Assembly: GCA_014189685.1 (NCBI GenBank)
Contig: DVAB01000052.1
Location: 1 to 10,721 of the forward strand
Length of the DNA stretch: 10,721 nucleotides
Origin: Candidatus Naiadarchaeum limnaeum
GTDB taxonomy: Archaea > Undinarchaeota > Undinarchaeia > Undinarchaeales > Naiadarchaeaceae
Direction of reading: 5' to 3'
This document shows, piece after piece, positions 5,949-10,008 of this stretch. A program made the translations under genes and the position numbers. Positions within the stretch are counted from its first letter, which is position 1, and every line of letters starts with the position of its first letter. Under the pieces are notes generated by a model. The model did not search any database. It was given only the letters and a program-made list of their open reading frames with translations, and was not told the origin of the DNA.

Positions 5949-6958
5949 GCTTTTACTTTTAAAAAATCAATTTTAGTTTCTTTTATATCAGGCTTGGCCA
6001 ATAGAGTGACTCTGGACTCTTCTTTCTCAGCTCTAAATTCATAATTAATTAATGGCGCAATTTTTTTAGCAAAACCGACAATCTCATTGTGCATTGGCAT
6101 CTCTGATTCAGGAAGCCTGTAAGTTGAGTATCCTACGTGAACGTATCCCTTTACTTCAACAAACATTGGCATTGCTAGTTTTATGAGCTCTGTATAATTC
6201 TCAGGCTCGATCATAGCGCTTCTTATTAAAGTTAAGCGCACAACTGTTCTACACTTTAATTTGCACATTGCTTCTAAAGATTTTTTCAATCGCTGCCAGC
6301 CATTTTTCACCTGAGAACGATCAATTTTATAATAAAGCTGTTCATTTGGAGCGCTTAAGCTTATGTATAATTGAGTTGGCTCATGGTGCTCATCTATTAG
6401 TTTTTGAATTGCCTCTGGATTTGAGCCATTGGTGACAAGAAAAGTTGTCATTCCATGCTTATGATATTCGGCAATCATTTCTCCTAAGCGCGGATATAAA
6501 GTAGGCTCTCCTGAAAGAGAAATCGCAACATGTTTTGGATAAAACATTTCCTTGACTTTTTCAGGAACCGCTGTTGGATCGCCTTTAAATCCGATTAATT
6601 GTTTCATTTGAGCCTGAATTGACTTTTCAACTAACGTTTTTGGGTCATCAGCTTCGCTCCAAGGAATTTCATGGCCAGGAGCATATTCCATTGGCCGCCA
6701 GCAAAAAGTACAATTATAGTTGCAAAGATCAACAGAAGGGGTCATCTGTATACATTGATGGCTCTGAATTCCATAAAACTGTTGCTTATAACAAGCAGTT
6801 TTTCCATGCAAAGAGTTTTTTGTGTAATGGCACGTCTTTACTGCTCCATGTTTCCCAAAAAAATCGTACTGCTGCTTTTCTAGAATAGAACGGACTTTTT
6901 CAACGCTTTGTTCTAAAACTTTGGGCTGTTCAGTTTTTAATTTAAGTAATTGTTTCAT
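5945..6958 (-). CDS. taw1: tRNA 4-demethylwyosine synthase (Taw1/TYW1-like radical SAM enzyme)
   Basis: This radical SAM enzyme condenses N1-methylguanosine at position 37 of tRNA-Phe with carbons from pyruvate, forming the tricyclic 4-demethylwyosine. Cys79, Cys83 and Cys86 form the CxxxCxxC motif for the SAM-binding 4Fe-4S cluster, followed by WRPMEYAPG, a Taw1 hallmark. Cys43, Cys56 and Cys69 give the second cluster; the spacing of all six (13, 13, 10, 4, 3) matches that known for M. jannaschii TYW1 (C26, C39, C52, C62, C66, C69). SLSGEPTLYPR (148-158) is the GEP motif. The 337-residue length fits the archaeal stand-alone enzyme. It begins 4 bp after the RNase Z stop, so both are probably co-transcribed. 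The first 67 nt of the gene are duplicated at 9302-9368. Confidence 0.95.
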   Translation of the reverse strand: MKQLLKLKTEQPKVLEQSVEKVRSILEKQQYDFFGKHGAVKTCHYTKNSLHGKTACYKQQFYGIQSHQCIQMTPSVDLCNYNCTFCWRPMEYAPGHEIPWSEADDPKTLVEKSIQAQMKQLIGFKGDPTAVPEKVKEMFYPKHVAISLSGEPTLYPRLGEMIAEYHKHGMTTFLVTNGSNPEAIQKLIDEHHEPTQLYISLSAPNEQLYYKIDRSQVKNGWQRLKKSLEAMCKLKCRTVVRLTLIRSAMIEPENYTELIKLAMPMFVEVKGYVHVGYSTYRLPESEMPMHNEIVGFAKKIAPLINYEFRAEKEESRVTLLAKPDIKETKIDFLKVKA

Positions 6959-6962
6959 GAAA

Positions 6963-7883
6963 TTATTTTAGAGTAATTTTCATTAAATCCTTTGCTACTT
7001 CAGTATTTTTGAAAATTTTTCGCGCCTCTTGTGAAAACACTTTTGTATCTTTATAGCGCGAGCTAAAATGAGTTAACAATAAGTTTTTTACTTTTGCTTT
7101 TTTTGCAATTTCTGCAGCTTCTTTTGCAGTTGTATGCCCGACCTCTTTTGCTTGATCAGATAATTCAGATGTATAAGTTGCTTCGTGTATGAGTAAATCC
7201 ACTTCTGAAGCAAACTTTACCATTTCAGAATTGTACGCAGTATCCCCTGAATAAACAATTTTCAACCCCGGCCGCGGCGCGCCCATTACATCGCTAGGCT
7301 TTACTACTTTATTTTCGACTTTAACATTATTTCCGCGCTGTAATTCGCCAAATTGAACTGGCTTTAAGCCCAGCTGTTTTGCTTTTTTCACATTAAATTT
7401 GCCTGGCTTGTCTTTTTCAGAAAATTTGTAAGAAACTCCGCTTACAGAATGAATAGACGGAATCGCTTCAATAATACAATTTTCGCCACTATAAACCAAT
7501 CCGCTTTCAATTTCTTTCACTATTAAATCGTATCCCAGATGAATCGGGCCTGCGAAGTGCGCATATTCATCTAGTTTTCTCAAAGTTTCAATAATTATTT
7601 TTGCAGGCTTTGGTCCATAAATATAAAGCGGTTCTTTCCTTTCAAGCAGTGCCATTGTTTGTATAATTCCAATAAGTCCGGCAAAGTGGTCAGCGTGCCA
7701 ATGGGTAATAAAAATTGCGTTGATTTTAAACAAGCTAATCCCTGCAATTCGAGCTTGCCTTTGCGCATTTTCCCCACAATCAAAAAGATAAACTTTCCCT
7801 TCGTGTTTTAATGCAATAGCTGAGTGCCCCCTTTCTTTTGTTGGCGCGCCGGCAGTTGTTCCTAAAATTGTAAGCTCGAACAT
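6963..7883 (-). CDS. rnz: Ribonuclease Z (tRNA 3' endonuclease)
   Basis: A 306-residue metallo-beta-lactamase-fold nuclease that removes 3' trailers from tRNA precursors, leaving the end ready for CCA addition. Zinc ligands are visible in order: H61-x-H63-x-D65-H66 (THWHADH; the family more often has HxHGDH, so Ala replaces Gly), H145 in PSIHSVSGVSYKF, D214 in YSGDT, and H272 in LLLTHFSSRY. HEAT (233-236) and GHTTAKEA (249-256) are further RNase Z/ElaC signatures. Length is usual for the short form. It leads a two-gene unit with taw1, and the window's tRNA gene lacks an encoded CCA, consistent with this processing route. A TATA-like box lies about 30 nt upstream. A 54-bp internal segment (7674-7727) and the last 25 nt of the gene, stop included (6987-6963), are copied at 9273-9416. 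Confidence 0.94.
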   Translation of the reverse strand: MFELTILGTTAGAPTKERGHSAIALKHEGKVYLFDCGENAQRQARIAGISLFKINAIFITHWHADHFAGLIGIIQTMALLERKEPLYIYGPKPAKIIIETLRKLDEYAHFAGPIHLGYDLIVKEIESGLVYSGENCIIEAIPSIHSVSGVSYKFSEKDKPGKFNVKKAKQLGLKPVQFGELQRGNNVKVENKVVKPSDVMGAPRPGLKIVYSGDTAYNSEMVKFASEVDLLIHEATYTSELSDQAKEVGHTTAKEAAEIAKKAKVKNLLLTHFSSRYKDTKVFSQEARKIFKNTEVAKDLMKITLK

Positions 7884-8326: not shown

Positions 8327-8422
8327 GCCGAGATGGCGGAACCCGGTAACGCGCTATCCTGGAATTAAAATTCAGAAAGGTAGTCCCGCAAGGGGTTGCA
8401 GGTTCAAATCCTGCTCTCGGCG
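8327..8422 (+). tRNA. tRNA-Ser(GGA), with a 13-nt intron at 37/38
   Basis: The acceptor GCCGAGA (8327-8333) pairs with TCTCGGC (8415-8421). The D stem is GCG (8336-8338) with CGC (8350-8352); the T arm is GCAGG-TTCAAAT-CCTGC (8398-8414). A class II variable arm has CCC (8385-8387) pairing with GGG (8392-8394) over GCAA. The anticodon stem CTATC (8354-8358) pairs with GGTAG (8379-8383, one U-G), leaving a 20-nt loop. Removing 13 nt after position 37 gives the standard loop CTGGAAA with anticodon GGA. The discriminator is G (8422), as in Ser tRNAs. Exons total 83 nt and CCA is not encoded. A naive reading gives tRNA-Leu(UAA) from the nested stem CTGGA/TTCAG, but that leaves five unpaired bases after the D arm and lacks A73, so I favour Ser. 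Confidence 0.88.
8365..8377 (+). other. tRNA intron (13 nt) with bulge-helix-loop splice motif
   Basis: TTAAAATTCAGAA lies between tRNA positions 37 and 38. The splice motif can be drawn directly: a 3' bulge of three As (8376-8378) cut before its last base, a 4-bp central helix (8359-8362 with 8372-8375, one G-U), and a 5' bulge starting AA/T (8363-8365) cut after its second base. The intron is too short for an outer helix, so the motif is the relaxed bulge-helix-loop form of the archaeal BHB. Confidence 0.8.
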
Positions 8423-8495: not shown

Positions 8496-9305
8496 ATGAC
8501 TGAGGCCGCTATATTAGTAGAGTTTGATGAATTTGGAGAAATTAAGAAACAGCGCTGCTCAAATTGTAAAGAGGCTTTACCACATAGAGTTAAAAGTGGA
8601 AGCAAATGCCCTAAATGCGGCGCAACACTTACCGCACCAATAGATTACAAATTAAGAAGAGTATTGGATAAACTAAGAAAAGGAAAACCAGTTACATTTG
8701 ATGAAGTAGAGCATGCTATTATACCGCCACATCTACAAGCCCCACCATTGAAACTTGTTATATTTGAAAAATTTACACCCAGTAACACACATCATTCAGG
8801 CAGGACGTACCTTTCAAGGTACCTGAGCCGCAGAAATATTAGCGGTGAAAATGTAATGATAGCCCTTATTGCGCGGCCAGAAACTGAATTAATCCAAAAA
8901 TATCGTCTCCCTGCAGTACATGAGGCTAGATATCTATGGATAACTGATAAAACAAGACGCCGCCACGCATTTGTTCATCCTGATGATATCATAGGTTTAA
9001 AGGAACTTGATAAGCTTACTTTTAGACTAAATCAATTTTTCCAAGAGAAGGGCGAAAACGCAGTTGTTTATGTTGAAACATTTGCTCTGCGAAAAGAGAT
9101 AGGTGATAAGGGAGTTATCAGGAAGTGCGAGGATATTGTTGGACAGCCAGACATCTTTAAAGGAATTCTTCTGATTAATTACGGCCGCGAGCTTAAGGAA
9201 ATGGAAAAAACTGCTGTAGCATATGCTATAAGATTAAAGAATTTAGCTTCAACTTCTGGATGCGTAATTGATTTTAATGAAAATTACTCTAAAATAATTT
9301 CATGA
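8496..9305 (+). CDS. Zinc-ribbon protein with DUF835-like C-terminal domain; last 10 codons from inserted DNA
   Basis: A 269-residue soluble protein. Cys21-x-x-Cys24 and Cys38-x-x-Cys41 (CPKCG) form an N-terminal zinc ribbon. A basic linker (50-90) follows. Residues about 95-259 resemble archaeal DUF835: VMIALIARPE (119-128), ARYLWITDK (143-151), HPDDIIGLKEL (161-171), AVVYVETFALRKE (189-201) and LLINYG (224-229), the last two aligning in pattern with 'vvlldgleyL' and the terminal strand. The family call is inference from pattern. Zinc-ribbon plus DUF835 suggests a signalling or regulatory adaptor; no catalytic residues are seen. Codons 260-269 and the TGA lie in a copy of the rnz/taw1 junction, so the native C-terminus is probably missing or altered. 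Confidence 0.65.
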   Translation: MTEAAILVEFDEFGEIKKQRCSNCKEALPHRVKSGSKCPKCGATLTAPIDYKLRRVLDKLRKGKPVTFDEVEHAIIPPHLQAPPLKLVIFEKFTPSNTHHSGRTYLSRYLSRRNISGENVMIALIARPETELIQKYRLPAVHEARYLWITDKTRRRHAFVHPDDIIGLKELDKLTFRLNQFFQEKGENAVVYVETFALRKEIGDKGVIRKCEDIVGQPDIFKGILLINYGRELKEMEKTAVAYAIRLKNLASTSGCVIDFNENYSKIIS

Positions 9306-9369
9306 AACAATTACTTAAATTAAAAACTGAACAGCCCAAAGTTTTAGAACAAAGCGTTGAAAAAGTCCG
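9273..9369 (-). repeat. 97-bp exact inverted copy of the rnz-taw1 junction (6891-6987)
   Basis: Every base of 9273-9369 equals the reverse complement of 6891-6987 (positions sum to 16260). The copied piece holds the last 25 nt of rnz with its stop, the 4-bp gap and the first 67-68 nt of taw1, here reading on the plus strand with a truncated taw1 start at 9302. Identity stops abruptly at both ends. It encodes the last ten residues of the zinc-ribbon/DUF835-like protein in another frame. Confidence 0.95.
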
Positions 9370-9416
9370 GCAAAGTGGTCAGCGTGCCAATGGGTAATAA
9401 AAATTGCGTTGATTTT
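9363..9416 (+). repeat. 54-bp exact direct copy of an rnz-internal segment (7674-7727)
   Basis: 9363-9416 is identical to 7674-7727 (offset 1689). The source encodes part of the RNase Z active-site region on the minus strand, including the HxHxDH segment. Here it lies between two unrelated convergent genes. It overlaps the 97-bp inverted copy by seven bases (AAGTCCG, 9363-9369), which belong to both sources. The methyltransferase's last 11 codons and stop fall in it. Confidence 0.95.
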
Positions 9417-10008
9417 TAGCAATGTAAACTCTGAACCCAGACTTTCTTCCAGTCTCCTCAACAGTTTTAAAAACTTTCAGCATCTCCTCTTTGTACATGC
9501 GGCCGCCTTTTGTGTGCCTGCCAACAATTTGCAAACTTCCTCGTAGGTTCAAATGTGCAGGCGCGCCATTTATTATTTGATTAACAATCTCTTTCCCTGC
9601 TGAATAAGGTGGATTTGAAACAATTGCATCAAACTTTTCAGATTCAACCGGCACATATAACTCTCCCCGCAAAACCTTAACCTGACTTTGCAAGTTATAA
9701 TTTGCCACATTTTTCTTTGCCAACAAAACCGCGCGCTCAGAAGAATCAATCATTGTAATTTCTAATTGCGGATAAAAGTGCGCAGCGACTATTCCAATAA
9801 CCCCATAGCCGCAGCCTATGTCAAGCAAAGTTTTTGTGCCCTCAATTTGCATTCCATTTGCTAAGCAAAGCGCCCCCTTATCTACTCTCCGCCATGAAAA
9901 AACTGGCGGGCTTGTGTAAAACTCAAATTCCTTTTTTCTTATAACAGCGTTTACAATTCCAAGCTGCAATGGAATTTCTGTTTTTTCCTTGAAATAGTGC
10001 TCATCCAT
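9379..10008 (-). CDS. MJ0882/RsmC-like SAM-dependent methyltransferase; C-terminal tail from inserted DNA
   Basis: A 209-residue class I methyltransferase. DIGCGYG (63-69) binds S-adenosylmethionine, MIDSS (86-90) is the acidic end of strand 2, and SNPPY (131-135) is the N-methylation motif of enzymes that modify exocyclic amino groups in nucleic acid bases. Residues 28-45, with SPPVFSWRRVDKG (33-45), and AGKE (137-140) match the MJ0882 pattern (GVFS...VDKG; NPP.RAGKE). The likely substrate is a guanine in rRNA, as for RsmC, but this is inferred. MJ0882-type proteins end soon after the GxRV strand (191-194); here the final residues 199-209 and the stop are encoded by the direct copy of rnz DNA, so the native end is lost. 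A TATA-like box lies at 10033-10039, about 28 nt upstream. Confidence 0.82.
   Translation of the reverse strand: MDEHYFKEKTEIPLQLGIVNAVIRKKEFEFYTSPPVFSWRRVDKGALCLANGMQIEGTKTLLDIGCGYGVIGIVAAHFYPQLEITMIDSSERAVLLAKKNVANYNLQSQVKVLRGELYVPVESEKFDAIVSNPPYSAGKEIVNQIINGAPAHLNLRGSLQIVGRHTKGGRMYKEEMLKVFKTVEETGRKSGFRVYIAKNQRNFYYPLAR

Follow-up and report, generated by a model that had tools for sequence, protein, structure and literature searches.

The window comprises the whole of contig C39 (10,721 bases), one of the 52 contigs that make up the 984-kb, 98% complete genome of an uncultured archaeon. It carries the gene order RNase Z–TYW1–Yip1-like–MTHFS and a convergent pair of genes consisting of a zinc-ribbon ORF (269 aa; 8496–9305, plus strand) and a methyltransferase (9379–10008, minus strand), in which the MTS domain spans residues 28–195. 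At 8327–8422 (plus strand) Rfam recognizes a tRNA (46.8 bits) that ARAGORN missed; by eye this is a tRNA-Leu with the anticodon UAA.

A repeat search of the window returned exactly one inverted pair, 6891–6987 and 9273–9369 (97 bases, 100% identity), and one direct family, 7674–7727 and 9363–9416 (54 bases, exact). The two downstream copies form a composite patch across the ends of the convergent genes, as had been described in an earlier note on this DNA. Piece A of the patch (9273–9369, minus strand) is a perfect inverted copy of 6891–6987 (source A), and piece B (9363–9416, plus strand) is a perfect direct copy of 7674–7727 (source B). The repeat search also confirmed that the two pieces have the seven bases AAGTCCG in common (9363–9369). 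This microhomology appears as AAAAAGTCCG in source A and as AATAAGTCCG in source B, and the join lies in a 10-base context with one mismatch. No third copy of either piece was found in the genome of this organism. Since both pieces are present only at source and patch and not in multiple genome copies, we can eliminate an insertion sequence or MITE.

Both sources lie at their native locations. Source A (minus strand) contains the last residues and the stop codon of RNase Z, followed by the first codons of TYW1. Source B (plus strand) is located inside RNase Z, a gene on the minus strand, and encodes KINAIFITHWHADHFAGL, which includes the metallo-beta-lactamase HxHxDH motif in the form HWHADH. 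In a genome from another family of the same order (G001), the gene order RNase Z–TYW1–Yip1-like–MTHFS is the same as in the window. RNase Z from this relative can be aligned to its last residue (AKDFMKIEIK, read from the DNA, versus AKDLMKITLK in the window), and TYW1 is directly adjacent. Because G001 keeps the RNase Z–TYW1 junction and because source B encodes the active-site motif of RNase Z, the sequences identify both sources as the originals and the patch as the copy.

Short reads may leave the orientation of a segment between inverted arms ambiguous. We rejected an assembly ambiguity of this kind, with an inverted segment between the 97-base arms, because G001 conserves the RNase Z–TYW1 junction found at the left arm; the 2.3 kb between the arms are therefore drawn in the ancestral orientation. 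Tandem duplication was also rejected as the origin of the patch. A reverse-transcribed mRNA was dismissed on the grounds that, when the patch is read in one direction, the RNase Z/TYW1 genes appear in sense in piece A but in antisense in piece B.

The edges of the patch show a feature that had been missed in the earlier note. The eight bases TTGATTTT form a direct repeat on both sides: the left copy (9268–9275) comprises the last native bases before the insert, and the right copy (9409–9416) is identical to the end of source B (7720–7727). The three joins therefore carry microhomologies of 3, 7, and 8 bases, namely, TTT at the left join to source A (or GATTT with a one-base bulge), AAGTCCG between the two pieces, and TTGATTTT. 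For two joins placed at random in this genome, the probability of an 8-base match is 4e-5, or 4.7e-4 if offsets of ±5 bases are allowed.

If the 141 bases that separate the two TTGATTTT copies are removed, a putative empty site results that reads ...GGATGCGTAATTGATTTTTAGCAATGTAAACTC... (in another excerpt, ...GTAATTGATTTTTAGCAATG...). In this reconstruction the zinc-ribbon ORF would encode 260 aa and reach its stop codon directly at the join (..SGCVIDF-TAG). A paralogue on contig C28 that is 55–58% identical ends in ..NDKCIVEWY-stop, and in the alignment the two stops (after CVIDF and CIVEWY) fall within one residue of each other. The MTS domain of the methyltransferase is complete, as it ends at residue 195 of 209. 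The homologue from a genome of the same order (G002) ends a few residues past the domain (...SGYRVYRSVKK-stop), and in other families the homologues stop at the domain end or shortly beyond it, with a longer tail in the family of G003–G005. Because the reconstructed stop matches that of the paralogue and because the methyltransferase domain is complete, no native sequence need be missing, and it is plausible that the site was uninterrupted before the event. This empty site, with the zinc-ribbon stop at the join and a whole methyltransferase domain, does not bear out the earlier proposal that both native 3′ ends are gone. The accompanying doubt as to whether the order left and right of the patch is real is weakened by the TTGATTTT repeat with the stop at the join, by the C-terminus of the paralogue, and by the RNase Z–TYW1–Yip1–MTHFS order in G001.

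An unoccupied target site was not found among the relatives compared, the nearest of which belong to other families of the same order. In these relatives the zinc-ribbon and methyltransferase genes are not neighbors, since the zinc-ribbon gene is absent and the methyltransferase gene is located beside a TruB-like gene. This arrangement would be consistent with a larger rearrangement that joined formerly unlinked regions, in which case the patch would be breakpoint filler and both native ends would be truly lost. However, unlinked flanks are not expected to produce an 8-base repeat match together with a stop within one residue of that of the paralogue, and we regard this explanation as very improbable.

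Measured against the reconstruction, the zinc-ribbon protein is longer by nine residues (NENYSKIIS, following ..CVIDF), and these residues and the TGA stop codon derive from the patch. Both ORFs do end in the patch as previously described, but the new zinc-ribbon residues number nine and not ten because the TTT codon of residue 260, the first in the patch, also belongs to the flank. The last 11 residues and the TGA of the methyltransferase also lie in the patch, and from residue 201 onward its tail departs from the reconstruction, with ..IAKNQRNFYYPLAR in place of ..IAKNQLRIQKLKLNSLIL. In the empty site the methyltransferase would continue for 13 residues beyond NQ, which would give it an overlap of ~50 bp with the zinc-ribbon gene. 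Such an overlap is possible, although it is larger than in the other two convergent pairs of the window, which abut or overlap by 4 bp. With the patch in place, the two genes are separated by a 73-bp gap. The patch also creates a 31-codon ORF (9302–9397, plus strand) that begins with the copied TYW1 start codon. The idea that this ORF, or the T-runs acting as a terminator, gives the patch a function is without support, and we claim none.

The zinc-ribbon protein itself has no Pfam match at the threshold of E 0.001. The earlier assignment as DUF835-like is weakly favored by a DUF835 match below the cut-off in its paralogue (E 0.0045, 17.2 bits versus 33.1). Two zinc-ribbon paralogues adjoin each other on contig C28 (L005/L006). 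The first, a protein of 677 aa, appears to carry a membrane segment at its N-terminus and weakly matches CarboxypepD_reg and DUF835. A search of 60 further genomes from the same domain yielded no homologue.

Stretches totaling 853 kb, or 87% of the genome, were compared with one another and with themselves, and this sample contained no second local copied patch. The other local repeats resemble diverged gene duplicates, within-gene repeats, short repeats at chance level, and an apparent tRNA pair. The 97-bp pair is the longest exact inverted local repeat in the sample, and the 54-bp pair is the longest exact direct local repeat outside one diverged gene pair. With lengths this far beyond chance, we can exclude a chance origin of the copies.

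A laboratory artefact would require that a three-junction chimeric molecule from phi29 amplification or library preparation entered the assembly, while the cells carry the uninterrupted site. Chimeras from phi29 multiple displacement amplification (MDA) contain overlaps of mostly 5–8 bases with a peak at 6, span distances of 0–5000 bases, and consist of ~70% inverted joins (PMC4595205). The patch resembles these chimeras in overlap lengths, distances, and inverted joins, with two of the three joins within 5–8 bases, and an artefact would also fit the zero divergence of the copies. Because the ranges coincide, the joins alone cannot decide between an MDA artefact and an event in vivo. However, ~96–97% of MDA chimeras are single-join and three-join chimeras are far rarer, whereas the patch has three joins and comes back to its starting point, and 853 kb of consensus yielded no further exact copy resembling a chimera. 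The many, mostly single-join chimeras of amplified data are not seen in this sample, and the absence of a second patch argues against widespread amplification chimeras. In addition, no copy of another contig was seen at the contig ends tested except for end-to-end overlaps (69, 27, and 19 bases), which are uninformative on the k of the assembler. The smallest contig measures 2534 bases, and this cutoff at ~2.5 kb suggests a binned metagenome and not an amplified single cell; completeness of 98% in 52 contigs also speaks against the artefact. Finally, joins of 3–8 bases are too short to mislead a de Bruijn assembler alone, so that chimeric molecules would need to outnumber the true ones. On this evidence a laboratory origin is unlikely.

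The first candidate named in the earlier note, replication template switching (MMBIR/FoSTeS-like), provides the best fit. We conclude that the patch is probably a recent templated insertion that arose in vivo by replication template switching in this archaeon with a genome of ~1 Mb. As in other templated insertions, the insert is copied from elsewhere with the source retained, and microhomologies (3, 7, and 8 bases) are found at the switch points. According to this mechanism, a nascent strand moving rightwards would be copying the end of the zinc-ribbon gene when it left its template at TTGATTTT. The RNase Z/TYW1 boundary lies 2.3 kb from there; the strand would pair with it through TTT (or GATTT, if one base bulges out) and copy source A backwards on the other strand as far as 6891. 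At AAGTCCG the strand would switch to source B, a segment of RNase Z at a distance of 0.7 kb, and copy it forwards. Since source B happens to end in TTGATTTT, the strand could re-pair there with the TTGATTTT of departure. The outcome would be a gain of 141 bp with no loss, intact sources, and new tails on two convergent genes.

A related type of insertion is known from yeast. In rad27 and rtt105 mutants, two inverted pieces of the same locus with a join of ~6 bases (range 2–11) constitute a frequent class of complex insertions at breaks (PMC11724301). Like the insertions in rad27, rtt105, and rfa1 strains, the patch consists of two mutually inverted pieces of one locus joined by short microhomology. 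The model for these double inverted insertions comes closest to microhomology-mediated end joining at a double-strand break, by which a ready-made two-piece fragment of the RNase Z locus would have been captured between the two genes. This type of end joining is present in archaea, as described for the primase PriSL from Saccharolobus (PMC12019639), and a genome search for Ku, which found none, is also in line with it. Unlike in the yeast insertions, the source junctions of the patch are ~0.7–0.8 kb apart (versus ~2–119 bp), neither source is more than 2.4 kb from the target, the strand would return by a microhomology of 8 bases, and the host is an archaeon (PMC11724301). Moreover, bases are usually lost in end joining, whereas none need be lost at the patch, and the presence of TTGATTTT on both sides is better explained by a strand returning to an intact template. 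Because the strand would have returned to the same eight bases without loss, the original template appears to have been intact, and for this reason we prefer template switching over end joining. The two mechanisms are not sharply separable, and we consider end joining quite unlikely.

Comparison with human MMBIR/FoSTeS templated insertions, which commonly prime on imperfect homology, reveals the same origin of the insert from nearby DNA and the same short, partly imperfect join homologies (PMC8421209). In contrast to the human cases, the patch represents a single event in an archaeal consensus genome with no larger rearrangement attached. A small literature search uncovered no archaeal example of such events, which are described for yeast, worms, and human cells. 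The mutation type is known, and the patch would be a new, very clean, and very recent instance of a template-switch templated insertion, and less probably an artefact.

Patch and sources differ at 0 of 141 bases. From this identity we infer that the event is young, with a neutral divergence above ~1–2% being unlikely. Since no later mutation has blurred them, the templates, the joins, and the return point are readable at the single-base level. If real, the patch is an unusually readable record of a replication error with three switches in an uncultured archaeon with a small genome, and it illustrates that a single step can rewrite the tail of a gene. If it is an artefact, it warns that gene ends in assemblies of this kind call for caution. 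Both Hel308 and a Y-family polymerase are encoded in the genome, and this inventory, together with the failure to find Ku, is compatible with template switching but is no proof of it. Stalled replication in this lineage might more generally lead to multiswitch excursions of >100 bases with lossless return, and thereby serve as a natural source of C-terminal tails and of spacers between convergent genes; we offer this extension as a tentative and rather doubtful idea.

The comparisons also revealed several other repeats. The intergenic segment 7933–7974 of the window has an 88% identical copy on contig C19 (L055 5020–5061, opposite strand) and possibly belongs to a dispersed short repeat. A 100-bp sequence occurs with 97% identity at two distant places (L034 3505–3604 on contig C6 and L045 1784–1883 on contig C28). 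The 3′ end of contig C41 and the 5′ end of contig C43 overlap by 69 exact bases, and the two contigs are probably adjacent. On contig C3 (L031 10603–10883 and 12459–12739), a 281-bp tract with 96% identity is embedded in duplicates whose overall similarity is ~80%, which looks like recent gene conversion.
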